A stretch of DNA of 64,000 bases, from assembly GCF_900114615.1 (NCBI RefSeq), contig NZ_FOTS01000011.1, positions 62,001 through 126,000 of the forward strand, read 5' to 3'. Shown here one piece after another: positions 12,831-62,784 of the stretch. Source of the DNA: Pelosinus propionicus DSM 13327 (GTDB lineage Bacteria; Bacillota; Negativicutes; DSM-13327). The notes beneath the pieces were generated by a model, which worked only from the letters and a program-made list of their open reading frames with translations, had not been told where the DNA came from and did not search any database. Numbering within the stretch: the stretch's first letter is position 1; every line of letters starts with the position of its first letter. The translations under genes were made by a program, and so were the position numbers.

Positions 12831-13904
12831 TTAACCAAGCTGCTTCTCAATTAAACTTGTTATTTCTTCTGTTGAAACTTTAGTTGAACCAGGTTTATAC
12901 AAATCCGCTGTACGATACCCTTGAACCAAAACCTGATCCACAGCCTTTTCGATTGCTTCCGCTGCTGCTTCAGCACCTAATGAGTAACGAAGAAGCATAG
13001 CTGCGGATAAGATCGTCCCCACCGGATTCGCCAAGCCCTTACCTGCGATGTCAGGAGCCGAACCATGGATTGGTTCATATAGCCCAGTGCCATCGCCTAG
13101 GCTAGCTGACGGCAGCATACCAATCGATCCCGTTAAGACAGCAGCTTCATCACTTAATATATCTCCAAACAGATTATTCGTTACGATTACATCAAACTGC
13201 TTTGGTGCTAAAATCAATTGCATCGCGCAATTATCAACATAAAGATGACTCAAATTAACATCCGAGTACTGAGAAGCAGTCTCTTGCGCCGCTTTACGCC
13301 ATAAACGTGAAGAAGCCAATACATTCGCCTTATCCACAGATACCACCTGCTTACGCCGTAATTGGGCAGCCTTGCAGGCCAGATTTACAATCCGCTGTAC
13401 TTCTGGGGTACTATAGATCTCTAGATCCGATGCTTGCTCCACACCATTTACCACTGCCGCCTCATTCTTGGCACCATAATAAATACCACCATTTAATTCT
13501 CGAACTAATAAAATATCCACACCCGAAATCGCCTCTGCTTTTAAAGGAGAAAATTCAATTAGTGCTTCTGCTACGCGGATAGGTCTCAAGTTTGCATATA
13601 GCCCCAATTCTTTGCGCAATCCTAAAATCGCTTTTTCCGCTCGAATCTCAGGAGCAACCCCATCCCATTTAGGACCGCCAACCGCTCCAAGCAGTATGGC
13701 ATCAGCCTTTTTGGCTGCCTGAATGGTACTATCCGGCAGCGGAAGACCATATGCATCAATGGCCGCACCGCCAGCCAAATGGCGCTCAACCTGTAATTGT
13801 ATTCCACTCTTACCTGCTGCTTTTTTCAGTATACAGACAGCTGCTGCTGTTATTTCTTCCCCAATACCATCACCGGGAATCACAACAATTCGTTTCTCGC
13901 TCAT
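12831..13904 (-). CDS. leuB: 3-isopropylmalate dehydrogenase
   Basis: NAD-dependent oxidative decarboxylase of leucine synthesis. The 357-aa protein has the family opening VVIPGDGIGEEI, the substrate-binding arginines in RKELGLYANLRP, and the metal/NAD segment GDILSDEAAVLTGSIGMLPSASLG followed by EPIHGSAPDIAGKG. It starts at ATG 13904 behind AGAGGTG and lies between ilvC and ilvB. leuA, leuC, leuD and ilvD are not in the window, so the leucine branch must be completed elsewhere. Confidence 0.97.
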   Translation of the reverse strand: MSEKRIVVIPGDGIGEEITAAAVCILKKAAGKSGIQLQVERHLAGGAAIDAYGLPLPDSTIQAAKKADAILLGAVGGPKWDGVAPEIRAEKAILGLRKELGLYANLRPIRVAEALIEFSPLKAEAISGVDILLVRELNGGIYYGAKNEAAVVNGVEQASDLEIYSTPEVQRIVNLACKAAQLRRKQVVSVDKANVLASSRLWRKAAQETASQYSDVNLSHLYVDNCAMQLILAPKQFDVIVTNNLFGDILSDEAAVLTGSIGMLPSASLGDGTGLYEPIHGSAPDIAGKGLANPVGTILSAAMLLRYSLGAEAAAEAIEKAVDQVLVQGYRTADLYKPGSTKVSTEEITSLIEKQLG

Positions 13905-13922
13905 ACCAACACCTCTGTCCTA

Positions 13923-14939
<1,017 letters not shown>

Positions 14940-16227: not shown

Positions 16228-16270
16228 AAAAAAACCCTTGTACATTCTTTGTGTTAAAAGATAGCAAGGG
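16228..16270 (-). terminator. Terminator after the chemoreceptor gene
   Basis: On the minus strand CCCTTG ... CAAGGG (16235-16270) is followed by seven Ts. It lies about 105 bases past the stop of the MCP-DctP gene and before the ilv promoter. Confidence 0.75.
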
Positions 16271-16374
16271 TTGTCTACTATATCATTTATAAAAAGCTAA
16301 ATAATAAAATCTCAAAATAAAATTTAAAATAAATTCTCTATACCTTTTAGTATTCAACACCATTTCTAACTTTT

Positions 16375-18543
16375 CTATACTGTTTTTTCTTCCGCTTTTT
16401 TTATCTCTGTAAAAAGCTCGTTTACCAGCTCTTTGCCAATTTGATTTTTATATCGATCAATTACCGGTTTAACAACCTCTTGAATGTTAGCTATCTCCAT
16501 CGGACTAATTTGTCCTATCGACATACCTTTCCTTTCTAATGCCTGCAAATTATCCTCTTTCCTTTTCCGATTGACCTTAGTGGTATATAAGGCACCTTCT
16601 TTTGCAGCCTGTTCAATAATGGGTTTATCTTCAACTGGTACGATATCCCATAGCTTCTTCGAGTACATCAGTATAAAAGGTGAATATACATGATTTGTCA
16701 AGGTCAAAAACTTTTGCACTTCAAAAAATTTATCGTCATAGATCGTAGCAATCGGGTTTTCTTGACCATCTACCTCTTTTAACCGCATCGCATTGTACAA
16801 ATTAGCAAAAGGCAGCGGTACCGGCTCTGCTCCCAAAGCCTTCCAAGTATCGATATGAAGATCATTCTGCATGGTTCTAATCTTTAGTCCGCGAAAATCT
16901 TCTAATCCCATAATAGCATGCCGCGAGTTAGTCGTATTGCGAAATCCGCTCTCGGCAAATGTCAGACCGTAAAATCCGTATTGATCAAGCATATTCAGAA
17001 GCTTTCTGGCAAATGGTCCGTGAAGTATATAATCTGCTATGTTCTCATTTCTAAACAAGAACGGGAAATCAAAAATCATAAATCGCTTATCTAAACCTGC
17101 CAGTGTCGGCAAAGCCGGGAATGTCATTTCCAGAGTTCCTTCTTTTAACTTTTGAATCATATCCAGGCCCGTCCCCAATTGCGCACTATGAAAGATTTTC
17201 AGACTATAACGCCCCTGCGTGCGCTCATGCAAGATTTGTCCAAATTTCTCCATACCTGCATAACATACAGACTTATCGGTCATTTCAAACCCAACACGTA
17301 AGGTTTTCGTATTCGAAAAATGAAAGCGAAAAACTGCTTGTTCCAAACTTCCAGCCAAACGTGATAACTGTTGCGTACCATTAGCGATCTGAGCAACTGA
17401 TACGGTCATTTGCTCGCTGCTAACAGCAGCCGTTTGTGTTGCTGCTGCAGATTGTTCAGCGATCGCAGCCACGCCATGCACAGTTGACATCAAATCAACA
17501 GCAGCTTCTGCCTGATTATCTGCAAGCAATGTTACCTCTTGTAATTTATTGCGGGACTTCTCAATATCAGATCTTATATCTGCAAAACTATCATTAGCCT
17601 CTGTTATTGTATGTACACCTGTATTCAAACTTTCCTGCGTTGTTTCAAATGCTACCACGACATGTCCAATATCGGAAAGCATGCTTTCGACAATTTCATT
17701 AATTTGACCAGCCGCATGACGAGATCGATTGGCAAGTTCACGAACCTCTTCTGCAACAACCGCAAATCCTCTCCCTTGCTCTCCTGCTCTCGCTGCCTCA
17801 ATCGCAGCATTCAATGCTAATAAATTTGTTTGTGCTGTAATGCTATTGATAAGCTTGATAATTTCTCTTACTTCTTGCGATTTCCCCTTAAGTTCCCCAC
17901 CCAGGCGCACATTATACTGAGCAGTTGCTGCAATTTCATTGACAATATTTCTCGATCGTCCTATTGCTTCGCTTCCCTGATGAACTGACTCCACAATTTG
18001 CTGTGTAATTTGCAATAACGATTCCAGCCCTGCTGCCGTACTTTTTGCCAGTTCAGAAACTTGATCTGTTTTGCTGGCAGCATTTTGCGCTATCGCACCC
18101 GTTTCCTGAGCACCTGAAGCAAGTTCAGCTACTGCCATTGATATTAGCCTTATATCGCGGCTAGTCCCATCCGAGACAGATGCAATTTCTACGCTTTTTT
18201 TTGATACTTCTGCCGCTTCATTAGTCACTAAACCCAAGAGTGTACGTAGATATTCCAATGCAGAATTAATTGATGTTGCGATCTTTCCTAATTCGTTATT
18301 ACCTGCACACTCCAGCGAAACTGTCAAATCTCCATCTTTCATGCGGGAAGTTTGTTCCGAAATTGTTTTCAATGGTCGAAAGATTCGATACAATAATATT
18401 AAGTTGAAGGAACAAGATAGTAAAACACCAATCGTTAAGAATACGCTATACACATCAAATCCGGATAAAATGATATACATTAGTAAAATAAGTACTAATA
18501 TGGGCGATAATACAAAAAATAATTTCATATATTTTTCTTTCAT
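16375..18543 (-). CDS. Methyl-accepting chemotaxis protein fused to a C-terminal TRAP DctP solute-binding domain
   Basis: A 722-aa chemoreceptor of unusual order. Two adjacent membrane helices (about 8-28 and 32-54) leave almost no external loop. A HAMP segment (about 52-104) and a full MCP signalling domain follow, with the hairpin tip [14 protein letters not shown] near 264-277. A complete TRAP-type periplasmic binding domain follows at about 415-715, with the DctP landmarks LKIRTMQN (R556) and VDGQENP (591-597). No signal peptide or membrane helix precedes the DctP part, so on simple topology it lies in the cytoplasm. I infer an intracellular sensor of an organic or sugar acid. It starts at ATG 18543 behind GGAGGAGG, downstream of the carbonic anhydrase gene. 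Confidence 0.88.
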
Positions 18544-18620
18544 AATCTAACGCCTCCTCCGATTTGTTCATTAACTACAAATGGTTGCATAACATCATTC
18601 ATAACAACTCTTTCAAAGTA

Positions 18621-19166
18621 CTAACCATCTGTCAAAAGTGATACTTCACCTGTGTCAGGATGAATCATTAGCCCATGAATCGGAACATTTCTTGGAATAA
18701 TAGTCGTTGTACGCAGTGTATCTACCAGCTTTTTAACTTCTTCCTCACTATCGTGAACCTTGTCTAGCCACGCAATTGCTTCTTCCTCAAATTCAAGAAT
18801 CTGCTTCTTATCAATCCCTCGCTTTTGCATCTTTTGTTTCAGCATGCTTGGAGATATTTGCGTTACACCGCAATCCTCGTGACCGACCACAACAATTTCC
18901 TCTACGTCCAAAGCGTAAATAGCTATCACTAAACTTCGTAAAATAGCACCAAAATTTCCATCTGTTGATGTTCCGGCCGTTTTAATTACTACGGCCTCTC
19001 CTCTTTTTATTCCAAGTGCCGACTCTAACAATTCAACCAGTCTGGTATCCATACAAGTAACGATAGCGATCTGATGTTTTGGACTCTTAGAAAGACCATC
19101 CTCATTCGCCACTGATTTTAAAAGAAAATTGCTGTTTGCTTTGATTAGTTGCTCTAGCCCTATCAT
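18621..19166 (-). CDS. Beta-carbonic anhydrase family protein
   Basis: A 181-aa protein with the zinc site of beta-class carbonic anhydrases: C38-x-D40-x-R42 (CMDTR) and H96-x-x-C99 (GHEDCG). It interconverts CO2 and bicarbonate, or binds zinc in a related role. It is shorter than the plant and E. coli forms and matches the compact bacterial subgroup. It lies 77 bases upstream of the MCP-DctP gene on the same strand, so co-transcription is possible, but no functional link is evident. Confidence 0.9.
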   Translation of the reverse strand: MIGLEQLIKANSNFLLKSVANEDGLSKSPKHQIAIVTCMDTRLVELLESALGIKRGEAVVIKTAGTSTDGNFGAILRSLVIAIYALDVEEIVVVGHEDCGVTQISPSMLKQKMQKRGIDKKQILEFEEEAIAWLDKVHDSEEEVKKLVDTLRTTTIIPRNVPIHGLMIHPDTGEVSLLTDG

Positions 19167-19331: not shown

Positions 19332-20294
19332 CTATGCATTTACTGCAACAGCATGCTTAGGTTCCTGATGACTTAGAACACGTACAACCTCTTGAGCTGC
19401 GGTAACACTGCATCGTGTGACTGCATCTTCCGTATAGGCTCCACAGTGAGGAGTTAGCACTACATTAGGCAGTGTAAGCAGCGGATGATCCGGCGCCGGC
19501 GGTTCTTGTGTCAAAGTGTCGGCACCATAGCCGGCAATCGTTCCCGTTTTTAATGCATGAAAAAGGTCTTTCTCATCTACCAGCTCACCTCTAGCCGTAT
19601 TGATGATAAAAGCAGACTTCTTCATGCTTGTCAAAGTACGCTCATTCATAAGGGACTTTGTATCAGGGGTAACGGGTAAATGCATTGTTAAAAAGTCAGC
19701 TTTTTCTACTACTTCCTCTAAGGAAAGATATCTCACATTATAATTCCGACATAACTCTGGTTTCTGCCAAACATCAAAAGCTATAATTTCCATACCAAAA
19801 GCATGTGCTCTTTTTATCACTTCACTGCCAATATTCCCTGTACCCAGTACCCCTAATACTTTTCCATATAATTCACAACCTAAGTTGCGTTTCCAACTGC
19901 CTTGACGAATTTGAGCATCCTGAACAGGTATTGCTCTTGCTAGAGACAACATCAAGCCGAATACTAATTCGCAAACCGATATGGTATTCGTTCCTGGCGC
20001 AAGGGTAACGGGGATACCGAGCTTTGCAGCAGCCTTTACATCTACTTTGTTATATCCCACACCATTTCTGGCTATTATTTTTAATCCAGGTGCTCCTGCT
20101 TCAATAACCTTGTCAGTAATTTCATCTAGCCCGGCAATAATCGCATCCATACCGGGAATAATGCGAATCATCTCGGCCTCTGACTTAACGCCATCACTAA
20201 CATGAGTGATAATTTCATGCCCTGCATTTTCTAGTATTGCCTTGCCTTCTTTATTGGCAGCAACCGAACGAGCCGTAATTAATACCTTTGCCAT
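19332..20294 (-). CDS. D-isomer-specific 2-hydroxyacid dehydrogenase (second copy)
   Basis: A 320-aa NAD(P)-dependent dehydrogenase of the phosphoglycerate dehydrogenase-like family. The Rossmann motif is GVLGTGNIGSEV; the catalytic Arg is in NTARGELVDE, and the Glu and His in QEPPAPDHPLL and TPHCGAYT. It has no C-terminal ACT domain, so it is not the serine-pathway SerA type. It is the last gene of the sugar-acid operon, 40 bases after an FGGY kinase. It probably oxidises or reduces a sugar acid or its phosphate; the substrate is not known. Confidence 0.88.
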   Translation of the reverse strand: MAKVLITARSVAANKEGKAILENAGHEIITHVSDGVKSEAEMIRIIPGMDAIIAGLDEITDKVIEAGAPGLKIIARNGVGYNKVDVKAAAKLGIPVTLAPGTNTISVCELVFGLMLSLARAIPVQDAQIRQGSWKRNLGCELYGKVLGVLGTGNIGSEVIKRAHAFGMEIIAFDVWQKPELCRNYNVRYLSLEEVVEKADFLTMHLPVTPDTKSLMNERTLTSMKKSAFIINTARGELVDEKDLFHALKTGTIAGYGADTLTQEPPAPDHPLLTLPNVVLTPHCGAYTEDAVTRCSVTAAQEVVRVLSHQEPKHAVAVNA

Positions 20295-20334: not shown

Positions 20335-21882
20335 TCATTTTTTACCAAACGCAGCAATATCCGTGAATTCCTGCTGCAGATTCCAGTATATACGGTTATA
20401 AATATCATATAGTTCCTGGTAACACTTAACTGCCGGCGCTCCCGGCTTATAGGTTTTTTCAACGGTTACAAAATCAGCCGTAGAAGATATATCTTTCAAA
20501 ATCCCCGCAGAAACGAAGCCTAATACTGCGGCACCAAAAGCTGCCCCTTCGTTTACATTTGGGACATTTATTTCCTGATTCAAGGTGTCAGCTAATATCT
20601 GCAGCCATAACTCCGACCTGATAAAGCTGCCGCTTACCCTAATTTCACGAGCTGGTCCCGTCACTTCCTGTAAGGCATGCAGGATACTGTTCATTCGATA
20701 ACATACCCCTTCCATGGTGGCGCGAATCATGTGTCGTTTATCATGCTGCAGGGTAAGACCGAACAATACACCTCTGGCGTCCGCATTCCAGTTTGGAGCT
20801 CGCTCGCCGGTAAAAAAGGGAAGCATAATGAGCCCCTCTGAGCCCGGCGCTATTTTTTTTGCATAGCTAGACATCAAGTCATAGGAATCAATGCCAAGTT
20901 TTTCTGCCACGCTTTGTTCTGCCTCATTAAAATGATCCCGCATCCAGCGCAGCGCAAGTCCACCATTATTAATGGCTCCGCCAGCAACCCATACGTTATC
21001 CGTAAGATTGTAACACCAAGTCCGTCCTTTTTCATCTGTACACGGTTTATCTGTCAGCATACGTACTGCACCGCTTGTGCCAATGGTGGCACTCATATCC
21101 CCAGGCCTTACCGCTCCGATCCCTACATTTACCAATACACCGTCACCAGCACCAATCACGACAGGAATACCCGCCTGCAAACCCGTGCGACGAGCCATCT
21201 CACCTCTTAAGGGCTGACTATACGTTGTTGACACAACATTCGGCAGCGTCTCTTCTGAAATAGACAGATAAGATAGCAATTCCCGATCCCATTCCAAACT
21301 CAATAGATTATACAAACCGGAACCGCTGGCAACCGAACGGTCTACCACCCATTGTCCAGTCAATACTCGAAAGGCATAATCCTTGATAGAACCAAAGTAA
21401 GAAGAACGCTTGAATATCTCGGGACGCTCCTTGCGAAGCCAAGCAATCTTAGCCATGGGATACATAGGGTGGAGTGGACATCCTGTACGGCGGTATATGG
21501 ACAGGAAATCAGGATATAATTTTTTCATCTCTCGCACAATGTCCTGGCTGCGAGTATCTGCCCAAGTCATTAGCGTTGTAGTCGGCTCTCCCTCTTTATC
21601 ATAGGCAAGGAAACTATGAAATACAGAACTGATAGAAACTCCTTCCGCCTTACGTCCAGATTGGGTTAACGAGGTTACTACATCACTGATAACATTTTCC
21701 ATTGCACCAATGATTTCCTTAGAATCTTGCTCAGCCCAGCCGGAATGAGGCGTAAACAGCGGATATTCCTGAGAAGCAGCACAAAGAGACTGCCCGTCTG
21801 CTTGATACGCTACGGCTCTTACTCCTGTCGTCCCTATATCAATACCAATCCATACAGAAGGTTTCATCTTCATCATCCTCAC
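20335..21882 (-). CDS. FGGY-family carbohydrate kinase, gluconokinase-like (second copy)
   Basis: A 515-aa sugar kinase. The N-terminal phosphate loop is GIDIGTTGVRAVAY, a catalytic aspartate lies in GAGDGVLVNVG, the adenosine loop in TIGTSGAVR, and a C-terminal GSFIRSELWLQI segment is conserved. It is most like gluconate/xylulose kinases. It starts at the ATG at 21882 near a GTGAGGATG site. It pairs with the dehydrogenase gene downstream, as another FGGY kinase does earlier in the operon. The substrate is inferred to be an aldonic or keto-aldonic acid imported by GntP. Confidence 0.88.
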   Translation of the reverse strand: MRMMKMKPSVWIGIDIGTTGVRAVAYQADGQSLCAASQEYPLFTPHSGWAEQDSKEIIGAMENVISDVVTSLTQSGRKAEGVSISSVFHSFLAYDKEGEPTTTLMTWADTRSQDIVREMKKLYPDFLSIYRRTGCPLHPMYPMAKIAWLRKERPEIFKRSSYFGSIKDYAFRVLTGQWVVDRSVASGSGLYNLLSLEWDRELLSYLSISEETLPNVVSTTYSQPLRGEMARRTGLQAGIPVVIGAGDGVLVNVGIGAVRPGDMSATIGTSGAVRMLTDKPCTDEKGRTWCYNLTDNVWVAGGAINNGGLALRWMRDHFNEAEQSVAEKLGIDSYDLMSSYAKKIAPGSEGLIMLPFFTGERAPNWNADARGVLFGLTLQHDKRHMIRATMEGVCYRMNSILHALQEVTGPAREIRVSGSFIRSELWLQILADTLNQEINVPNVNEGAAFGAAVLGFVSAGILKDISSTADFVTVEKTYKPGAPAVKCYQELYDIYNRIYWNLQQEFTDIAAFGKK

Positions 21883-22041: not shown

Positions 22042-22854
22042 CTATTCTTCTTTAAAAACAATTTTTTGTATTGCATATCCTACGCCGCATTCTTCATTTG
22101 TTTTCGTTATTTCATCAGCACACTGTTTTAGCTCCTCGCATGCATTACCCATAGCAATTCCAATACCTGCTTCTCGAATCATAGAAATATCGCTGCCTTC
22201 ATTTCCAACTGCCATCACATTTTCCATAGGAATTCCCAAATCTCGACAAATTGTTTTCAAAGCAGCCCCTTTGCTGACAGTCGGCTCTACAATTTCTAAA
22301 CCATGATCGGTATCCCGAATGACAGCAAAATCATCTGACCACATTTTCAAAATTTGCTGCGCTTTTTGAATCCGTTCAGCGTCATCAAATACTGCAATGC
22401 GTAGAGGCGCATTCTCCAATGTCCTTAATTTCTTTGGACCTAAGGCCGTATAAGGCACCCCAAAAATTTGAGAATAATTGACCGTTTCTTCGGTAGGTTC
22501 CTGAACAATAAGCTGATTTTCTAAATATATTTTGACATAATAATTTTCTTCTTCAAAAAAGCGAACCATTTCTCTAAATTTCAGCAAATTCATCGGTCTT
22601 CTTAGCCAGATTCTTTCTTCTCTTTCATCTGTTACATAGGAACCACTCAAAGAAATCAGCGGCGCATTTAACTGCAATTGGCGGGCATAAGGCAGCATAG
22701 AACAAAAAGGTCTTGCCGATGCCAGTGTAACAATGATCCCTTTCTCTTTGGCTTTGGCAATCATTTCAACAGCCTGATCGGGAATTTTTTTCTTTTCATC
22801 CAATAACGTTCCATCCAGATCAAGAGCAATCAGTCGAATAGGAGGATACATCAT
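22042..22854 (-). CDS. Cof-type HAD-superfamily phosphatase
   Basis: A 270-aa haloacid dehalogenase-type phosphatase. The nucleophile motif is DLDGTLLDE at the N-terminus and motif IV is GNEGSDISMI near residue 218; the C2 cap lies between, as in Cof/YidA proteins that dephosphorylate sugar phosphates. It lies inside the sugar-acid operon between the two kinase-dehydrogenase pairs, so it may remove phosphate from a pathway intermediate or clear a dead-end product. The start is ATG 22854 after AGAGGTAG. Confidence 0.9.
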   Translation of the reverse strand: MMYPPIRLIALDLDGTLLDEKKKIPDQAVEMIAKAKEKGIIVTLASARPFCSMLPYARQLQLNAPLISLSGSYVTDEREERIWLRRPMNLLKFREMVRFFEEENYYVKIYLENQLIVQEPTEETVNYSQIFGVPYTALGPKKLRTLENAPLRIAVFDDAERIQKAQQILKMWSDDFAVIRDTDHGLEIVEPTVSKGAALKTICRDLGIPMENVMAVGNEGSDISMIREAGIGIAMGNACEELKQCADEITKTNEECGVGYAIQKIVFKEE

Positions 22855-22878: not shown

Positions 22879-23910
22879 TTAATTAACAATCCAACTAGAA
22901 GTATCTTTGCTATCTAAAACACGTTTCAATTCACGCAATAATAAATAGGGTGTCTGCGCAAATGTATCGTTCGTCGCACCAGCTAAATGAGGAGTTAGAG
23001 TAACATTATCCATAGTTAACAGAGGATGCTCTTTCTCTATCGGTTCTGTCCAAAAAACATCTAAAGCAGCTCCGCCAATTTGCTTAGTTTCTAAGGCTTT
23101 TATTAGTGCCTTCTCATCAATCAGACCTGCTCGTGCAGTATTAATCAAATACGCCGTGGGTTTCATCCATGAAAACGCCTCTTTGCCAATCAATCCTGCC
23201 GTATCTTTACTAAGTCGTGCATGAATGCTAATGAAATCAGATTGTCTGCACAGTTCTTCCAGTGAAACCAATTGCACTCCCGACCCTTGAACTGCTTCCG
23301 CCTTGATATATGGATCATATGCCAGAACGCGAACATTAAAGTTTGCTAATTTGTGGGCAACCAAACGTCCTATATACCCCAAGCCTACCAAACCAATTGT
23401 TTTTTCACGCACATCACCCATAAATCCAGAATTAGCATATTTCTTTTTCCAGTCTCCCTGCATCAATGCAGCATGACCCCTTGCCACATTGCGCAGCTCT
23501 GCCAGCAGCAGTGCAATCGTAAAATCGGATACGGCCTCTGCATTGCGTCCCATGGTTTTCATTACTTTAGCACCTTTAGCCGTTGCAGCATTGACATCTG
23601 CATTTTCTGTTCCAGCACGACACACTCCAATATAAGATGCACTGCTTTGCTCAATCAGTTCTTTATTTAACGGAGTATGATGAGTAATAATCACATCGGC
23701 ATCCTTGCCTGCTTCAATCAATTCTGCTGGAGGCTTACCGGCACTAGGACCAAATTTTTCAACCTGGCTGCGTAAGAACCAAAATTCTTCTTCACTCTCC
23801 GGTTTCCAATCTACCCCTTTTACAATTGCTTCATCTCCGAAGACATCATGTACTGCCTTTGCCAGCGTATCCGCTGTCAGCATCGGATCTCCTACCACTA
23901 AAAATTTCAT
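22879..23910 (-). CDS. D-isomer-specific 2-hydroxyacid dehydrogenase (first copy)
   Basis: A 343-aa dehydrogenase of the phosphoglycerate dehydrogenase-like group. The NAD motif is GLVGLGYIGRLV, the catalytic Arg is in NTARAGLIDE, and the His in TPHLAGAT. It lies three bases after the FGGY kinase stop with its own AAGGAGGAG site, so the two are co-translated. Its N-terminal half differs from the second copy in the operon, so this is not a recent duplication. A kinase next to such a dehydrogenase recalls the B. subtilis yoaC-yoaD pair. Substrate unknown. Confidence 0.88.
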   Translation of the reverse strand: MKFLVVGDPMLTADTLAKAVHDVFGDEAIVKGVDWKPESEEEFWFLRSQVEKFGPSAGKPPAELIEAGKDADVIITHHTPLNKELIEQSSASYIGVCRAGTENADVNAATAKGAKVMKTMGRNAEAVSDFTIALLLAELRNVARGHAALMQGDWKKKYANSGFMGDVREKTIGLVGLGYIGRLVAHKLANFNVRVLAYDPYIKAEAVQGSGVQLVSLEELCRQSDFISIHARLSKDTAGLIGKEAFSWMKPTAYLINTARAGLIDEKALIKALETKQIGGAALDVFWTEPIEKEHPLLTMDNVTLTPHLAGATNDTFAQTPYLLLRELKRVLDSKDTSSWIVN

Positions 23911-23913
23911 TTA

Positions 23914-25428
23914 TTACTCCTCCTTCTTAATTAGCGCATCGATTTTATGATGTATTTCTTGAAGCGCAGGATAAATGTTTTGATATACATTTTCAAACAT
24001 AGCACGATATGCTTTATGCCTTACTGGATCTGGAAGATACACTGTATCATCGCGTCTCGTCTGCCGCACAGCATCTTCAGGGTCTTTATATATTCCTGCA
24101 CCAAGTCCCGCCAGCATCGCTGCACCAAGTGTAACAGCCTCCGGAACATTTAAACAAACTACAGGTTTCCCTAAGATATTTGCTTTAATCTGCATCCAAA
24201 AAGGTGACTTTGTTGCTCCCCCTACTACATTCACAGTCTCAATCTCACGCCCTACAATCTTTTGTATTCCTTCTACAATTGTTGTAGATTCATAGCAGAG
24301 TCCTTCTATGATCGCTCTTGCCAAATCACCTCTTGTATGAGAAGTAGTCAATCCAATGAATGCTCCTTTGGATAAAGGATCAGCGCCAGGTGCATATTTC
24401 CCGCGAAAATGAGGCATTAATAGCGCTCCCTTAGCCCCCATTGGAGACTTTTCAGCCTCTTCAAGTAAGGTAGTCAAATCCTCCTTAGTCATTTCGGTAC
24501 GAAACCAATCTAAGATTACACCTGACGAAATCACTTGCCCTGCGATATAGTACTTATCATCCACAACATAATTTACACAAGTAAAGTTCGTATCAATGTG
24601 TTTAATATCATTGGTCGGTTCATCAACGACCATTAGAATCTGTTCACTTGTTCCTATAGCACTCAGCACTTGGCCGCTTTGCGTCAAACCACAAGCAAAG
24701 GCACCACATACATAGTCCATTCCACCAGCAAAAACAGGAGTTCCCGCTTCAATACCTGTTAATCCAGCTGAATGGCTTGTTACAGTTCCCGCCAATTCTC
24801 CCGATCGTTTTATGGTGGAGCATATTTCTTGAGGAATTTGTGCGTGATTCAAAATCTTTTCAGACCAGCAGCGCTCTTTTAGATCAACTGCCATTGTCCG
24901 ACAAGCGATCGATAAATCCACTACCGCCTCGCCGGTAAGCCGATACACAATGTAATCCTGCATAGAAACCCACCGCTTAACACCTTTAAACAACTCGGGC
25001 TTTTGCTTTCGAATCCATTGAATTTTGGTAATACCCGCCATCGGATTCGGTACAAAACCACTAATACTGAATACTTCTTCACTGCCAAAATCCTCGCGCC
25101 AGTCGGCAGCAATTCCTTCCGTTCGAGTATCAAACCATGCAATGGAACGATGAATCCATTCGTCGTTCTCATTCAGAAGAACACCAGCAGCTCCCATACT
25201 AGCCACTGCGATGCCATCAATCTTTTCTCCACCCAATTGTCTGGTAATATCTCGTAATATATCTTGTACTGCATCCCAAATTTGCCCAGGATCAAATTCA
25301 GCCCAATTATTTTCTAAATAGTGAGTCACAGTTGGACGACTAGCCACTGCTTTAAACATGCCATCTTCTGTATAGGCGGCAGCTTTACAATTCGTAGTTC
25401 CTATGTCGATGCCGATTAAACAAGCCAA
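23914..25428 (-). CDS. FGGY-family carbohydrate kinase (first copy, TTG start)
   Basis: A 504-aa sugar kinase with GIDIGTTNCKAAAY at the N-terminus, catalytic-type Asp in GGMDYVCGAFACG, nucleotide loop AIGTSEQI and the C-terminal NVVGGATKSPFWMQI segment. The start is TTG at 25428, five to six bases after AGGAGGGG. It couples tightly to the dehydrogenase gene that follows. Similarity to gluconokinase or xylulokinase is general; the neighbours point to sugar acids. Confidence 0.88.
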   Translation of the reverse strand: MACLIGIDIGTTNCKAAAYTEDGMFKAVASRPTVTHYLENNWAEFDPGQIWDAVQDILRDITRQLGGEKIDGIAVASMGAAGVLLNENDEWIHRSIAWFDTRTEGIAADWREDFGSEEVFSISGFVPNPMAGITKIQWIRKQKPELFKGVKRWVSMQDYIVYRLTGEAVVDLSIACRTMAVDLKERCWSEKILNHAQIPQEICSTIKRSGELAGTVTSHSAGLTGIEAGTPVFAGGMDYVCGAFACGLTQSGQVLSAIGTSEQILMVVDEPTNDIKHIDTNFTCVNYVVDDKYYIAGQVISSGVILDWFRTEMTKEDLTTLLEEAEKSPMGAKGALLMPHFRGKYAPGADPLSKGAFIGLTTSHTRGDLARAIIEGLCYESTTIVEGIQKIVGREIETVNVVGGATKSPFWMQIKANILGKPVVCLNVPEAVTLGAAMLAGLGAGIYKDPEDAVRQTRRDDTVYLPDPVRHKAYRAMFENVYQNIYPALQEIHHKIDALIKKEE

Positions 25429-25530: not shown

Positions 25531-26625
25531 TTATTTTATAACTACGATCTCCGAATGTTCATTGAGCTCATCCTTTAATTCATCCAGAAATGGAGCCACC
25601 GACACACGCAGTCCTGCCCTTTTGGTAACCAGATCCATCCCTTGGCCTATTTCATCCAACGACACCAAATGAGTCAAAATTTTCTTAGCTGATACCTTAC
25701 CGCTACGAATCAACTCTAGGGCTAATGCATTATGCCGAGGTGCTGAAGAAAATGCACCATAAATAGCAATTTGCCGATAATGCACATAATTAGCATCGAT
25801 TGTAATCTCAGGCTGATCTTTAGGCAATCCTGCAAACAGACAAACTTTACCCATTTTACTAGCCATATTAATACCTAAAACTTGAGCTTCTGGTGTACCT
25901 GCCGTTACAATCACTACATTTGCTCCCAATCCACCCGTCAGCTCCATTACAGCTTTCGCTCCATCTTGGACACTAAGGTCAATATATCCATCGAAACCGA
26001 ATGATTTTGCTTCCTCCAAACGTCTAGAGCTCCGGTTAATCAAGAAGACCTTGCCTGCTCCTCTTGCTCTAGCCGCCTCAGCATGCATAATGCCGATTGG
26101 CCCTGCTCCGATCACTGCCACTGAATCACCTAAACCAATATTCATTACTTCTTGTGCATTCAGTACGCAAGCCAGAGGCTCCGCAAGAGATGCTTCCAAA
26201 TAGGTAACCTCATTGGGAATACGATTCATATTACCAACCCGGACACCGCCAGCTGGAACAAGTACATATTCAGCAAAGCCCCCATTATAGTGATGAGCTA
26301 TGGTTTTACGGGTATAACACATATTCTGCCAGCCAGAAGAGCAATAAGAGCACGTTCCGCACCCTATACCCGGTGCAACGATAACCCGATCACCTACCGA
26401 ATATGCAGTAACATCGGATGCTACTTCTACAATTTCTCCTGCTATTTCGTGTCCTAAAACAATCGGTGGCTTAATCGCCGCATGGCCATGACGAAAGGTT
26501 CTTAAATCCCCACCGCAAATTGCACAAGCCTTTACTTTAATCAAAACAGTTCCTGGCTGAACCTGAGGTGTTTCAATCTCCTCAACTGTCATTTTTCCAA
26601 TGCCTTGATATATCGCTGCTTTCAT
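25531..26625 (-). CDS. Zinc-dependent medium-chain dehydrogenase (sorbitol/threonine dehydrogenase-like)
   Basis: A 364-aa MDR-family dehydrogenase. Catalytic zinc ligands are in CAICGGDL and GHEIAGEI; the structural zinc is held by four Cys in GCGTCSYCSSGWQNMC. The Rossmann motif is AVIGAGPIGIMHAEAARARGA. It would oxidise a secondary hydroxyl of a polyol or sugar acid (compare L-idonate 5-dehydrogenase IdnD). It is second in the operon, after gntP, and the gap between them contains two copies of the palindrome TGGACGTCCA. Confidence 0.9.
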   Translation of the reverse strand: MKAAIYQGIGKMTVEEIETPQVQPGTVLIKVKACAICGGDLRTFRHGHAAIKPPIVLGHEIAGEIVEVASDVTAYSVGDRVIVAPGIGCGTCSYCSSGWQNMCYTRKTIAHHYNGGFAEYVLVPAGGVRVGNMNRIPNEVTYLEASLAEPLACVLNAQEVMNIGLGDSVAVIGAGPIGIMHAEAARARGAGKVFLINRSSRRLEEAKSFGFDGYIDLSVQDGAKAVMELTGGLGANVVIVTAGTPEAQVLGINMASKMGKVCLFAGLPKDQPEITIDANYVHYRQIAIYGAFSSAPRHNALALELIRSGKVSAKKILTHLVSLDEIGQGMDLVTKRAGLRVSVAPFLDELKDELNEHSEIVVIK

Positions 26626-28906: not shown

Positions 28907-29773
28907 ATGACGATACGAGAACCTAAACCCAATGTGTGCTTAGCACTCATACATAATATGTTTCAATCATTAACGAAAACAGAGCGCAAACTAGCAGAAT
29001 ATATCATTTCTAATCCATCAGAAGTCATTCATATGACAATCACCGAATTAGCTGAAATTACAGGGAGCGCTGAAGCTACGATTTCACGCTTTTGCAAAAA
29101 CAAGTTAGGATTTCCAGGTTTTCAAAGTCTTAAAATAGCCTTAGCAAGCGACTTATACGAACCCTTTGAATCGGTGTACAATGAAGTCAATGCAGATGAT
29201 CCCATCGACGAAGTCGCCAGTAAAGTCTTTCAAAATATTAACGAAGCATTACACGACACCTTAAAAATTATTCATGCTGAATCTATGTCTAATGCAATCA
29301 CTGCTATTTTAGCCGCTCGCCGTATTGACGTCTATGGCACAGGTGGGTCCGCACCGATTGCTGCTGATGTAGAACATCGCTTTTCACGTTTTGGTATTTC
29401 TGTCAGAGCTTATGCAGACCAAGATATGCAAGCAATTTCCGCCTCACTCTTGCATCCCGGCGATGTCGTAATGGCCATATCTCACACTGGTTCTAATCAA
29501 AGTGTTCTAGAATCTGTAAAAATCGCAAAAGAAAACGGCGCAACAATAATCGGTATCACAAGCCATATTCGATCTCCTCTTAGCCAAATATCAAATATTA
29601 CGTTAAACGGTATGGCAAAAGAAGTGAATTATCGATCCGAGGCAATGTCCTCACGTTTAATTCATTTAGCAATTATTGATGTGCTTTATGTTGGAGCCAT
29701 GTTAAGACAACCCGATCGAATTACACAAAATATGCAAAAGATTCGTCAATCCATTGCTAAAACTCGCTTATGA
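28907..29773 (+). CDS. RpiR/MurR-family transcriptional regulator
   Basis: A 288-aa sugar-phosphate-responsive regulator: N-terminal HTH_6 domain (about 10-85, with TITELAEITGSAEATISRFCKNKLG) and a C-terminal SIS domain (about 125-260, with GTGGSAPIAADVEHRFSRFG and SHTGSNQSVLE). It starts at ATG 28907 behind AAGGAG. It is divergent from the gntP operon, which it most likely controls in response to a phosphorylated sugar acid. A bidirectional terminator follows. Confidence 0.93.
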   Translation: MTIREPKPNVCLALIHNMFQSLTKTERKLAEYIISNPSEVIHMTITELAEITGSAEATISRFCKNKLGFPGFQSLKIALASDLYEPFESVYNEVNADDPIDEVASKVFQNINEALHDTLKIIHAESMSNAITAILAARRIDVYGTGGSAPIAADVEHRFSRFGISVRAYADQDMQAISASLLHPGDVVMAISHTGSNQSVLESVKIAKENGATIIGITSHIRSPLSQISNITLNGMAKEVNYRSEAMSSRLIHLAIIDVLYVGAMLRQPDRITQNMQKIRQSIAKTRL

Positions 29774-52341: not shown

Positions 52342-52812
52342 CTAATCATTTAATTGCTTTACAGCAATTTCTTCTTGCGCTGTTAGAACTTGGTTACTAT
52401 CTAATAAAATAATTAAACGATCGTCAATCTTGCCTACACCATTAATATAACGAGAATCTACAGCAATGGAGGCTGGTGGCTCCTCAACATCTGCAGCACT
52501 TAGACGTACGACTTCAGTCACCGCATCAACGGTCACGCCTACTGTTTGTCCATTAATTTCTACAACGATAATACGTGTATCATCATTATGCTCTGTAATC
52601 GGTAATTGAAACCTTTTTCTTAAATCAATAACAGGAATAATACGACCTCTAAGATTAATAATTCCCTCCATAAACGAAGGAGTTTGAGGCAACTTGGTAA
52701 TTGGCAATAAACGATTGATTTCCTGAACCTTCGTAATTGGAAGTCCATATTCCTCACTTGCCAGCTTAAATGTGACCAACTGTAATTCATCTTCTACTTT
52801 TATATCTTCCAT
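52342..52812 (-). CDS. cheW: CheW-type chemotaxis coupling protein
   Basis: A 156-aa CheW-like domain protein that couples chemoreceptors to the kinase CheA. The core pattern is present: LVTFKLASEEYGLPITKVQEI, then FMEGIINLRGRIIPVIDLRKRF, then TVGVTVDAVTEVV. ATG 52812 follows GGAGGTG. It is an orphan, with no cheA nearby, joined to the isoprenoid gene ispE. It might also serve the MCP-DctP receptor elsewhere in the window, but this is only inference. Confidence 0.93.
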   Translation of the reverse strand: MEDIKVEDELQLVTFKLASEEYGLPITKVQEINRLLPITKLPQTPSFMEGIINLRGRIIPVIDLRKRFQLPITEHNDDTRIIVVEINGQTVGVTVDAVTEVVRLSAADVEEPPASIAVDSRYINGVGKIDDRLIILLDSNQVLTAQEEIAVKQLND

Positions 52813-53086
52813 ATGGCAATACACCTCCATAATTCACCAAAAGATCAAATTAATTATTATATTCGATATTATAGCGGTGTTTGCCTGCAAATACCAGTAA
52901 TATTTTATACAATATATTTATTTTACCCAATTTTATAATTTTGCATGTACCTTGATTACTCCTGCAAGTTTTTATCTTATCCGATAACGAGTCTTTCGAC
53001 GCAGAACCAACTCTTCTTTATACCATTTGCACCAGCCAAACTCTACTTACATATAATAACTAAAGATCTTGCAGGAGGTGTATGTT

Positions 53087-58314: not shown

Positions 58315-59142
58315 TTAGGCCTGCATTTTATAAGCAGTAAACTGACCTACATAATCCAAGATTTCCTCTGCAGCTAAAATACCGGCCTGATTTGTAAATT
58401 GAACGGACAAACTGGGCAGCATTCCCTTGGAATAACTTTCCCAAACTTCCCCATGCTTCGGCGCGATTGCATAGTCAGCCCGCTCTAACATACACAGATC
58501 CAATAAAGAATCTCCTGCAGAAATAATCATCTTTTCTTCTAGTAAATTTCGTACATATAACACAGCATCCCACTTGTTCACTACCGCCGGTACCAGATAT
58601 AATTTTCTTCCTTGTAATGATATATTCCAATTCTGGGATTTTGCCCATAAAGAAAAACTAGTAAGCTCCTCTGTTGGTATGTTCTCCCGCTCAACTATAC
58701 AGTAATGGAAGCAATCATCTGCCAATTTTAAAGATCCCGCCCATGAAGAATGGCTAATCTCGGCAAACTGAGACAATATATCTTGGGCACACATACACAT
58801 TTTCGATATATTGCTTTTTACTCTTTGATTCCACCCTTGGTCTATCATGCCGTTTACAAGAACATTTCCACCATTGCTTACCACTGCATAGACTGAAGGA
58901 ATTACATCGCGAAATAAAGAAATGCGCTGATATTGTTCGATTGTGCGTGTGGTTACAGGGACAAAGGAGGCTCGGGAAGCAAATTGCAAAAGATGCTTGA
59001 TTGCCTGGTCGGTCATATAGGAAATATCTCGCCCATCATAAGTTTCGACTGCACTCATCGCCGGAGGGTTGTGATCGGGCAGCAAGCGAAAAGCTCGGAC
59101 AGAATAAATGAGTGTTTGATCAAGATCACTGGCAAATAACAT
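58315..59142 (-). CDS. HAD-family phosphatase of the Ter-linked biosynthetic module
   Basis: A 275-aa HAD hydrolase with the nucleophile motif DLDQTL (D6, D8) and a late GDSLLDLCMLERADYAIAP motif. The sequence is closest to sucrose-phosphatase/trehalose-phosphatase-type enzymes with a C2 cap. ATG 59142 overlaps the stop of the upstream PRTase gene (TAATG), and GGAGGAG lies six bases before it. In Ter stress operons a HAD enzyme is part of a predicted pathway for a nucleoside-like product; it would dephosphorylate the last intermediate. That role is an inference from published operon analysis. Confidence 0.82.
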   Translation of the reverse strand: MLFASDLDQTLIYSVRAFRLLPDHNPPAMSAVETYDGRDISYMTDQAIKHLLQFASRASFVPVTTRTIEQYQRISLFRDVIPSVYAVVSNGGNVLVNGMIDQGWNQRVKSNISKMCMCAQDILSQFAEISHSSWAGSLKLADDCFHYCIVERENIPTEELTSFSLWAKSQNWNISLQGRKLYLVPAVVNKWDAVLYVRNLLEEKMIISAGDSLLDLCMLERADYAIAPKHGEVWESYSKGMLPSLSVQFTNQAGILAAEEILDYVGQFTAYKMQA

Positions 59143-61649
59143 TAGTCTCCTCCCATCGTTTGAATCAAGCCACAGCAAGAATACGACATACCGCTGAATT
59201 GTTCCACGGCCACTCCTCGGTCTTTTGCTAATAAAAGGATATGCCGCAAATTAGGATTTTCTTTATTATCGATTAATATTTTCCAAGGAACACGCCGTAA
59301 CAGCACTCGAGTAGTTTCACCCACGCCAGGTTTGATCAGATTGATGTTAGACAGCTTAAATGTATCTTGTAGCTGCTTTATTGTATGCAATCCTGCCCAA
59401 GTAGGTACCTGTAAGTCACGAATATGTTTTCGGGCCATCAGTCTGGCTTCGTGGGAAATTACAGGATACTTGTCTACTATGGCAGCAATGAATAGCAGAG
59501 AAACATCTTGCTTGATCCATTCTTCATAAAACCTTGCACCATGAAAGTCAGTTTCATCTATCAACTCTGCAACATGGACCGTACGGCTCACTAACCCTGA
59601 TACAGTCGAGTTTAAGCAGGCGCTGGGAATCAAAAAGTCTTCTCTTGTCCCATACAAACGTACACAATGTCCCGGATCTGCTAAAACAGCTAAATCAGGC
59701 TCTACAGTTTCTCTATATTTTTGATTAAAAATAGTACATGCTTCTATGAGTTGATTCGTAATGGCTCCCTTACCAGTCCAGCCATCAATAAATTGTATGG
59801 CAGCTCCAGGATGCTGCTGCCTGATATAGAGCAACGCGTTTTCATCGATGCCTTTATCGCGAATAATGGAAATACTGTAATGAGGCAACGAAATATTAAA
59901 TTGCGCCTCGATATAGCGCTTAATCAAAATTCCTATGGGTGTCCCTGCACGCGCTAATGACACTAAGACAATGTTAGTCCCCTTAAGAGAGATAATCTGC
60001 TCTGCCACACTGCCAGCAGCCAACGCAATTTTCTCGGCAGTCTCCTGCAGCATGTGCTGAAATAGCGTCATATATTCAGGATTAGGCTGATACTCTATAG
60101 GCAGCATCTCTGAATAATGCCTGCCACCTTGTATCGCGGCCTCCCTAATTTGATTATCCAGCTCTGGAACGAGTCCACTAATATTTTTAAGCAAGAAGAC
60201 AACATCTCTGGAGCTGTAGCTGCCAATGGGCTTCGGATGAGGAATCAACGGCCTTATCAAATAACGGCTAACACAGTTTACAAGATAAATGCTTTTCACA
60301 CCAATAGGCTCTAGAGCCTGCAATAAAGTCTCTAGATCTTGATCCTTTACTTCTCTTTCAAAAAAGATAAAAATGTCATCGTAATAATCAGAAGGAATAT
60401 TATAGACAAAATTAGTAATGGAAGTATCCTCGGGATTGGCAAAGCAAATCGCCTGCTGTACTCCATAATTTTCCTCCTGCACTGGATAAATTGGGCTTCT
60501 GGTTGTGGACTGAACACTCACCCCTTCCCCCATATACCCCGCAATACGAAAGGGAATATACATAAATTCCCCTGTCCCCAGGCACAAAGCCTTCTTACCT
60601 TGTCTTTTTTGCTTCAGCCAATTGCCGATGTTGCGATATGCTTGCTCCATATTATTTTGTTCCTGACTGCTAATACCAAATCGCCCTGTGGCAAGCAAAT
60701 AAGGAATATTATTTTCTTCAGCCTTCGTATTCAACGAAGAATAATTCCTTACCAATCCTAAATCGTCTTTTATTTCTAACTTTTTCACAGCCGGCTTTTC
60801 ATTTTTTTTAGCAACATGAAGGAAGGTTTCCTGCCTATCTACCATAGGTCCTCCCTTTACAGTAATCTCTCCGGATAACAAAGATATGGTATCAATTTGG
60901 ATTTGCATTTCTTTTTGGGCATCAAGATATTGTTCTTTATCAGCTTTTGAGCGCCAATCCAAAAGAGAGAGTACAGCATACTTCTTACGAGGATATTGCT
61001 TGTGTATAGCACGAATAAAATTTAAAGCTGATTTACCAGTAGTAATCTCATCATCCACTAATACGATTGTATCTTCATTAGCAAACCATTCTCTTTCAAT
61101 CCCATAACAATAATGATCTACGGCGTGACTATGTTCTTCCGCGAACTTCAATACCATATCAATACCTACGATATTCTCTCTGGTTGTATGAATAAATCTA
61201 GCATTTTGGGAAAAGCAGCTGAAAACACCATGCCCTAAAGCAGTTGCCGTTTCTGCAAATCCGATAAACAGTGTTCTTTCTGGCAGGGGCAAAGGGTTGT
61301 TCCTTATATATTCCCAAGCCGTTGACATGGAGGGTGCGTTCGTAAAAGCCTTAGTAAAATCGCAATTCTCTTCAAAATGGCATTGCTGATACATCACACT
61401 AGCATAGCGTGATGCTAAAGCTCCACTTCCTAGCAAGGGAATCAGTGGGTGAACCGGAATGTGCTTTCCCAATATCTTGCTGACAAACAAAAAGCCGCGT
61501 TTTTTATTTTTTCGCGCGGCCATAAGAAACAAATTGTCGATAGGGATCTTGTAAACATTTGCAACCATATGTACCTGAACGTTTAAATCTTCCAGAATAT
61601 CATAAGAATACACATCAGGTAAGCAAGCTGGTAAAGTTATGTTGTTCAT
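59142..61649 (-). CDS. Phosphoribosyltransferase-TRSP-StiP fusion protein of the Ter-linked module
   Basis: An 835-aa protein with three recognisable parts. Residues about 30-275 form a PRTase-like domain, with the PRPP loop VLVDDEITTGKSA (196-208). About 316-430 form a TRSP domain, named for the motif seen here (TTRSPIYP, near 382-389). About 475-835 match the StiP family (YRHYSEMLPIEYQPNPEYM; SLARAGTPIGILIKRY; FIDGWTGKGAITNQLIEA). The StiP-type part has a PRTase-like RDKG/WTGKG layout. In other genomes these domains are often separate genes. It probably attaches ribose-phosphate to an unknown base and processes it. ATG 61649 overlaps the upstream lyase gene by 35 bases. Confidence 0.85.
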   Translation of the reverse strand: MNNITLPACLPDVYSYDILEDLNVQVHMVANVYKIPIDNLFLMAARKNKKRGFLFVSKILGKHIPVHPLIPLLGSGALASRYASVMYQQCHFEENCDFTKAFTNAPSMSTAWEYIRNNPLPLPERTLFIGFAETATALGHGVFSCFSQNARFIHTTRENIVGIDMVLKFAEEHSHAVDHYCYGIEREWFANEDTIVLVDDEITTGKSALNFIRAIHKQYPRKKYAVLSLLDWRSKADKEQYLDAQKEMQIQIDTISLLSGEITVKGGPMVDRQETFLHVAKKNEKPAVKKLEIKDDLGLVRNYSSLNTKAEENNIPYLLATGRFGISSQEQNNMEQAYRNIGNWLKQKRQGKKALCLGTGEFMYIPFRIAGYMGEGVSVQSTTRSPIYPVQEENYGVQQAICFANPEDTSITNFVYNIPSDYYDDIFIFFEREVKDQDLETLLQALEPIGVKSIYLVNCVSRYLIRPLIPHPKPIGSYSSRDVVFLLKNISGLVPELDNQIREAAIQGGRHYSEMLPIEYQPNPEYMTLFQHMLQETAEKIALAAGSVAEQIISLKGTNIVLVSLARAGTPIGILIKRYIEAQFNISLPHYSISIIRDKGIDENALLYIRQQHPGAAIQFIDGWTGKGAITNQLIEACTIFNQKYRETVEPDLAVLADPGHCVRLYGTREDFLIPSACLNSTVSGLVSRTVHVAELIDETDFHGARFYEEWIKQDVSLLFIAAIVDKYPVISHEARLMARKHIRDLQVPTWAGLHTIKQLQDTFKLSNINLIKPGVGETTRVLLRRVPWKILIDNKENPNLRHILLLAKDRGVAVEQFSGMSYSCCGLIQTMGGD

Positions 61650-62784
61650 GAAACACCCCATAAATTTTTGATTTTATCATTATTTTTTGCGCCCAGCGCG
61701 TATGAGGCTTGATTTCATTCATTTTGTTACCATAAGCACTAGAAACAACTCCTGTATTCCCATGAGATTCTGCTAAGATGCTGCATGCATCCATATACTC
61801 TTCATGGGTGACGACACATAAGGCCTGTACAGGTTTGATATGGCTAGGGTGAATGATTGTTTTACCAATTAATCCATTGGCTTTATCTAAAACAATCTCA
61901 TGCAGTAAACCATCCACATAGTGATTTAAAAGTGCGTCCCTCATTTTCTCCCCTGCTTGTCCAAAATTATCCGTAAAAGGTCTTTGGCGCAATAAAGGCT
62001 TTAAAACTCGTTCACTAGAATAAAACTCCCAAACAGGACCTGATACCACATAACCATGCTCTTGGCGAGTAAAGACATTAATAATATTGTCAATACAGCT
62101 GCGAATAACAGCAATATCATAAATTGTCATATCCGGACTGCGCCTTAAACCAAATAGTCCAGAAAAATCGGTTGCACCAATACGCACATTTAATATTAAG
62201 TTGCGATAAGAGTCGAGTAATTGCTTCACTTCGATCAGGCTTTTTTGCCTGCTCTCTATATACATAATTTCTGGTGATTCCAAAATAGGCATCCCATAGA
62301 TAGGTTTTGCCTGGTATTGATTAATCTTATCAAGGGTCTCAAGATAAAGATTGCCATTCTTTGCTGTAAACTTAGGGAAAACAAAACCCGTTAATAAGAC
62401 TGCATCCTGCCCTAATAAATGGGTTACTCGCCACATTTGTTCTACATTCCGTATTCTCACAAAAATAAGTGGAATATCAGCTGACGTAATGGTCCCTTCA
62501 CGCAGGGCTAAAGTAAGCTGCTGGAGCTGAAACTTTATCATACTCTCCGCCTCTGGGACCAAATTATCACCAATCGCATCTTCCAGACACAAAACCATGG
62601 ACATTAAACCTTTTAACTTGCCGCTGATTACATCTTGTGCAATGGTTTTACGAGTAGCAGGCATATACAAGGTTGCCCCTAAAGCGTACTCTAACAAAGA
62701 CTGATCCTCTATCCTTATTAATTGGGGTGGCAAATAAAAGATAGATTGCTCCTTCTCAAGAGAAAGATAGTTGAAGTAGCGCAT
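61615..62784 (-). CDS. HpcH/HpaI-type TIM-barrel C-C lyase of the Ter-linked module
   Basis: A 389-aa protein of the citrate-lyase beta/aldolase-like TIM-barrel group found in Ter operons. The family pattern LYMPATRKTI, the acidic VLCLEDAIGD, IYGMPILESPEIM and RIGATDFSGLFGLRR segments and HPSHIKPVQAL near the C-terminus fit a C-C bond lyase; the acidic residues would bind a divalent metal. The ATG overlaps the terC stop. The substrate is unknown. Confidence 0.85.
   Translation of the reverse strand: MRYFNYLSLEKEQSIFYLPPQLIRIEDQSLLEYALGATLYMPATRKTIAQDVISGKLKGLMSMVLCLEDAIGDNLVPEAESMIKFQLQQLTLALREGTITSADIPLIFVRIRNVEQMWRVTHLLGQDAVLLTGFVFPKFTAKNGNLYLETLDKINQYQAKPIYGMPILESPEIMYIESRQKSLIEVKQLLDSYRNLILNVRIGATDFSGLFGLRRSPDMTIYDIAVIRSCIDNIINVFTRQEHGYVVSGPVWEFYSSERVLKPLLRQRPFTDNFGQAGEKMRDALLNHYVDGLLHEIVLDKANGLIGKTIIHPSHIKPVQALCVVTHEEYMDACSILAESHGNTGVVSSAYGNKMNEIKPHTRWAQKIMIKSKIYGVFHEQHNFTSLLT

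Follow-up and report, generated by a model that had tools for sequence, protein, structure and literature searches.

TRAP-type binding proteins are classic examples of extracytoplasmic proteins, and DctP proteins are in general exported. Chemoreceptors with a cytoplasmic sensor also exist, some of them carrying it at the C terminus (CZB, PilZ). The signaling hairpin of an MCP contacts CheA and CheW and, because both are cytoplasmic, is itself inside the cell; it doubles back, bringing its C-terminal end near HAMP and the membrane.

In 4P47, the ligand pocket of a TRAP binding protein comprises Arg152, Arg173, Asn213, an aromatic residue at position 196, and an acidic one at position 76 (PMC11668362), and for CxaP passages of the same source cite binding of several sugar acids at 1.9 to 8.0 micromolar. 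In SiaP, the substitution E172R prevents docking onto the membrane subunits and does not impair ligand binding (PMC9352664). SBP-type domains serve in general as receptor sensor domains, according to passages of PMC9602780 in which DctP is named as a dicarboxylate SBP family only, without a DctP-MCP fusion. Our literature search found no paper on an MCP-DctP protein; one may still have been described in a subscription journal or in an annotation database. Here we analyze such a protein, encoded in a 64-kb window (the whole stretch of Pelosinus propionicus DNA examined), and compare it with its relatives.

Results

The receptor gene is a single unbroken ORF of 722 codons (frame analysis; Table 1). 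Pfam matches to HAMP, MCPsignal (PF00015, residues 216 to 359, 131 bits), and DctP (PF03480, residues 421 to 699, 280 bits against a cut-off of 23.4), together with two N-terminal hydrophobic segments, bear out the TM-TM-HAMP-MCP-DctP layout proposed in the initial annotation, and the protein also scores above the curated cut-off of the NCBIfam model TIGR00787 (dctP). The KIRTMQ and VDGQENP segments highlighted there were located at residues 554 to 559 and 591 to 597, and the external loop, described as nearly absent, indeed spans only about 6 residues between TM1 and TM2. In the structure model the C-terminal helix of the hairpin ends at residue 403 and the first DctP strand begins at residue 413. 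An alignment of 14 fused proteins contains zero indels at this junction, and the hairpin tip is the same in all 14 save for one residue.

Table 1. Coordinates of the fused receptor gene, its functional residues, and neighboring features in the window
Feature	Position	Strand	Basis
Terminator-like AACCCTTG...CAAGGGTTTTTTT, 3′ of receptor gene; missed by the scanner (long loop)	16231..16272	(-)	sequence
Fused chemoreceptor gene, 722 aa, TM-TM-HAMP-MCP hairpin-DctP	16375..18543	(-)	
DctP domain, residues 413-722, bilobed binding-protein fold	16378..17307	(-)	Pfam, structure match
N596 (SiaP N187, 4P47 N213)	16756..16758	(-)	
N581, site of the TRAP docking Glu (SiaP E172, docks onto QM)	16801..16803	(-)	
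F579, aromatic pocket lid (4P47 position 196)	16807..16809	(-)	
R556 (SiaP R147, 4P47 R173), carboxylate salt bridge	16876..16878	(-)	
R535 (SiaP R127, 4P47 R152), ligand carboxylate	16939..16941	(-)	
G459, site of the ligand-hydroxyl-binding Asp/Glu of most TRAP binding proteins (4P47 D76)	17167..17169	(-)	
Linker, 9 residues (404-412)	17308..17334	(-)	alignment + model
Helical signaling hairpin, continuous, residues 84-403	17335..18294	(-)	Pfam + model
HAMP domain, residues 51-100, 44 bits	18244..18393	(-)	Pfam PF00672
TM2, residues ~33-54 (to 56); Arg/Lys after it, predicted inside	18382..18447	(-)	hydrophobicity
TM1, residues 8-26; Lys-rich N terminus before it, predicted inside	18466..18522	(-)	hydrophobicity
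Shine-Dalgarno GGAGGAGG, clear and strong, ahead of ATG 18543	18553..18560	(-)	sequence
Carbonic anhydrase-like gene, 77 bp upstream of receptor, same strand	18621..19166	(-)	Pfam PF00484
D-2-hydroxyacid dehydrogenase	19332..20294	(-)	
FGGY kinase; nearest NCBIfam model gluconokinase, 521 bits, below model cut-off of 648	20335..21882	(-)	
Cof-type HAD phosphatase	22042..22854	(-)	
D-2-hydroxyacid dehydrogenase, second	22879..23910	(-)	
FGGY kinase, xylulokinase/gluconokinase-like	23914..25428	(-)	
Zinc-type alcohol/polyol dehydrogenase	25531..26625	(-)	
GntP-family (gluconate-type) permease, 567 bits	26783..28117	(-)	
RpiR-family regulator, divergent	28907..29773	(+)	
CheW gene	52342-52830	(-)	

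A Kyte-Doolittle scan detected no TM-scoring segment beyond the N-terminal pair in any of the 14 fused proteins, the highest later mean (1.40) lying within a soluble domain. As the initial annotation had it, no signal peptide precedes the DctP domain: neither a signal peptide nor a lipobox was found in the fused proteins, and nearly all stand-alone relatives carry such an export signal. Instead of the export signal of a TRAP subunit, the MCP helix leads directly into the DctP domain. These features predict a cytoplasmic DctP domain at the membrane-proximal C-terminal end of the MCP hairpin. Since the hairpin doubles back, the domain should sit beside, and be tightly coupled to, the HAMP/adaptation region.

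The DctP domain modeled with high confidence (pLDDT 95.5, from a 65-sequence alignment) and with an intact fold, the top structural match being 7BBR (Z 45.2, 1.3 Å over 308 aa). Its nearest solved relatives are CxaP/DctPAm of Advenella (7BBR, 7BCO) and 4P47, the CxaP/DctPAm match exceeding the next protein by two Z units. The full-length model was moderate (pLDDT 72.8, pTM 0.55, residues 597 to 619 poor), and its inter-domain geometry is not used for any claim made here.

A search of 1,427 whole genomes, with the DctP domain as the query in most searches, recovered the MCP-DctP fusion in 10. Besides Clostridium ljungdahlii and one congener, the carriers were all Negativicutes: five from the same family as the window, including four of its genus and one genome with four paralogues, and three from elsewhere in the class, among them one that has three paralogues. 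No additional fusion appeared in samples of 398 same-phylum and 398 other-phylum genomes within the E-value limits applied, which rarer or more divergent fusions could escape, and no relative was found on viral contigs. Pfam confirmed MCP and DctP in all 14 full-length fused proteins and HAMP in 11 of them. In two receptors (L058:4897-7008 and L056:4531-6681) HAMP is degenerate or partly deleted and MCP and DctP are intact, as if the membrane-side input were dispensable there.

Two sets of long DctP frames were discarded. The 788-aa frames in G073 and G081 are DctM-DctP transporter fusions rather than receptors; such 788-aa fusions, with an adjoining DctQ-like ORF, occur in two genomes from a different family of Negativicutes (L064:3841-6204(-) and L065:3653-6016(-)) and covalently link the binding protein to a membrane subunit. 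In G1003 (L097), the 992-aa frame turned out to encode an ordinary secreted SBP following DctM, its length reflecting a GC-rich artefact.

In a maximum-likelihood tree built from 71 DctP domains, the 15 fused ones, 44 to 94% identical to that of the window, group as one clade with support of 100/99. A single change between the fused and stand-alone states suffices on this tree, and 0 of 500 shuffles scored equally low. The sister of the fused clade is a stand-alone protein from a Sporomusaceae MAG (L021/L050) that has a lipoprotein-type signal and directly precedes DctQ and DctM genes. Together, the single clade and its secreted, DctQM-associated sister show, at the level of sequence, that the family arose from one fusion of an ordinary TRAP binding protein to an MCP, followed by diversification. 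DctQ and DctM lie beside nearly all stand-alone proteins, and neither was found in the 64-kb window or at any fused locus read.

The fused protein of C. ljungdahlii (L049, genome G200) shares 70% identity with that of the window over the DctP domain. Because the organisms are distant and the identity is nonetheless this high, horizontal transfer is likely. No DctP domain other than that of the fused receptor was detected in the C. ljungdahlii genome, which makes a residual TRAP-transport role there very unlikely.

The pocket of the fused family is conserved, contrary to the possibility that the ligand-binding residues had been lost. R535, R556, and N596 are invariant in all 15 fused domains, as are the coupling residues E595 and H618, and the F579 position is aromatic in 14 of the 15. 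The acidic pocket site is Asp in nine domains and Gly in six, the latter being the window's own subclade; ligand details therefore probably differ within the family. Given Gly459, the window receptor may differ in specificity from CxaP, and one might speculate that the site gives room to a bulkier ligand.

The Glu corresponding to SiaP E172 is present in 41 of 54 stand-alone proteins, including 20 of the 20 nearest ones, and in only 2 of 15 fused domains, the other 13 having N, Q, K, or G (Fisher p 1.7e-5, in a tally that treats the sequences as independent despite their shared ancestry). D58 and S60, which also take part in SiaP docking, are not invariant among TRAP proteins and are of little diagnostic value here. 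A sensor released from its transporter would be expected to show this pattern of retained pocket and relaxed docking.

Upstream of the receptor gene, the window carries kinases, dehydrogenases, and a GntP permease (Table 1), the last of which is likely the importer of the sensed compound. The whole 5.4-Mb genome has only three full-length GntP genes; a random gene would lie within 10 kb of one with a chance of about 1% (a rough estimate). Comparable genes flank fused receptors elsewhere: GntP, FGGY, 2-hydroxyacid dehydrogenase, KDPG aldolase, and a 6PGDH-like gene in C. ljungdahlii; GntP, FGGY, class II aldolase, 2-hydroxyacid dehydrogenase, and RpiR at L059, L060, and L062; and a galactarate/altronate or EDD-type dehydratase, a DHDPS-type aldolase, and an MFS importer at L055 and L061. 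Counting orthologous loci once, 6 of the 10 distinct fused loci thus lie in sugar-acid catabolic clusters with a GntP or MFS importer, not a TRAP transporter. The other four (L048, which ends at a contig edge, L056, L057, and L058) have no sugar-acid genes nearby. At L056 (L056:1-6681) the receptor gene is located just 5′ of a homocitrate synthase-aconitase-isocitrate dehydrogenase cluster, and the ligand of that receptor may be a different one.

On the downstream side of the Pelosinus receptor gene are ilv/leu genes. ilvC and leuB adjoin each other in the window (12831-14927) and in L047; in L046 and L063 a 514-aa 2-isopropylmalate synthase-like gene, absent from the former two, sits between them.

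As to the search for nearby cheA and cheW proposed in the initial annotation, the window contains one CheW gene, about 34 kb from the receptor, and CheW and CheA-sized CheW-domain ORFs are present in the genome. Nine CheW-domain matches were found genome-wide, four of them within three CheA-sized ORFs (690, 695, and 1,017 aa). The CheW gene of the window stands in tandem with genes for a GHMP kinase and a GntR/FCD regulator, and no other chemotaxis gene was recognized among the neighbors scanned. The window also contains an 839-aa ORF (59142-61661(-)) that fuses PRTase_2, TRSP, StiP, and PELOTA domains (tellurite-stress type).

Discussion

Comparison of sequences and structures establishes one fusion origin, an intact fold and carboxylate pocket, and a linker of fixed length. 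We consider it probable that the receptor senses sugar acids in the cytoplasm and steers chemotaxis by what a GntP-type (or MFS) permease has imported, the ligand, topology, and signaling all being predicted. The initial annotation had suggested an organic or sugar acid; because the best structural match is CxaP/DctPAm and the gene neighborhoods are of the sugar-acid type, the predicted ligand can be narrowed to a sugar acid on two independent lines. The association seen in the sequences would fit the free acid and its phosphorylated product alike.

In the mechanism we propose, a GntP-type (or MFS) permease would bring in an aldonate-like sugar acid, and either the free acid or the phosphorylated or oxidized product of the neighboring kinases and dehydrogenases would close the two lobes of the DctP domain. 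Lobe closure would be relayed through the 9-residue linker to the C-terminal hairpin helix beside HAMP, and a shift of this helix would alter CheA activity at the far tip of the hairpin. The cell would thereby steer by the amount of sugar acid taken up, a metabolic, inward-looking form of taxis.

Other readings differ in what they make of the DctP domain. It is unlikely, in our estimation, that the domain is a cytoplasmic sensor of some other carboxylate, such as a branched-chain or 2-oxo-acid intermediate or a dicarboxylate. The ilv/leu genes of Pelosinus, the position of the L056 receptor gene, and the many carboxylates among DctP family ligands (PMC11668362) would suit such a sensor, but the ilv/leu genes lie about 750 bp off, past the terminator-like sequence, and this side is not conserved in C. 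ljungdahlii, L059, L060, or L062, which have sugar-acid genes; moreover, the closest structural match is a sugar-acid binder. A domain that has lost ligand binding and acts instead as a cap, structural or dimerizing, or as a docking site for a partner protein, seems improbable. It would be in keeping with the loss of the TRAP-docking surface and with the loss of the hydroxyl-binding acid (G459) in one subclade, yet a decayed pocket should drift, and the carboxylate and coupling residues are invariant over 15 domains that are as little as 44% identical to that of the window.

An unusual topology could put the last 300 residues outside the cell, as a tethered periplasmic receptor or one still feeding a TRAP transporter, and the export signals of the stand-alone relatives may be cited in its favor. 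We regard this as very improbable: none of the 14 proteins has a hydrophobic segment between hairpin and DctP, the cytoplasmic location of CheA and CheW places the hairpin inside, the docking glutamate is largely lost, the DctQ and DctM partners were not found at the fused loci or in the 64-kb window, and C. ljungdahlii has no other detected DctP. That a frame error or misassembly joined two genes is next to inconceivable: nothing was found in its favor, the frame is clean, and independent genomes encode 13 more full-length proteins with the fusion and its gapless junction, that of C. ljungdahlii among them.

Returning to the cytoplasmic sugar-acid sensor, we also lean, with less assurance, toward a broader account in which a chemoreceptor gene acquired a TRAP binding protein on a single occasion and relocated it to the cytoplasm. 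On this account, the resulting inward-facing receptors would sense the sugar acid, free or phosphorylated, once a non-TRAP permease has imported it, and taxis would track uptake or catabolic flux rather than the concentration outside. A monophyletic set of DctP domains with the pocket kept, the export signal gone, and the docking residue mostly gone would represent a transport protein turned intracellular sensor. It makes a case for studying how CheA may be controlled by a sensor at the C-terminal end of the MCP hairpin, and how taxis may be driven by compounds already taken in; the purified DctP domain could become a compact sugar-acid biosensor.

Judged from its sequence, the fused protein is a chemoreceptor by architecture and a TRAP binding protein by descent. 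It is not the solute-binding subunit of a TRAP transporter, as its export, partner, and docking features all differ from those of one. With the TRAP SBPs of the DctP family (PF03480; 7BBR, 7BCO, 4P47) it shares the whole fold, at about 40% identity, the R/R/N carboxylate residues, and the aromatic lid; unlike them, the fused domain stands behind an MCP, has no signal peptide or DctQM partner, is predicted to be cytoplasmic, and in 13 of 15 cases has lost the docking Glu. Two TM helices, HAMP, and a hairpin with a standard tip are common to classical MCPs, in which the ligand-binding domain is extracytoplasmic, whereas here the loop has about 6 residues and the sensor is C-terminal to the hairpin, in the predicted cytoplasmic position. 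CZB and PilZ chemoreceptors likewise have the sensor on the cytoplasmic end of the hairpin, but theirs are small regulatory domains, in contrast to the complete 310-aa bilobed TRAP binding protein found here. As with maltose-binding protein and Tar, a bilobed solute-binding protein would feed chemotaxis; maltose-binding protein, however, is separate and periplasmic and docks from the outside, whereas DctP is covalently attached and predicted to be cytoplasmic.
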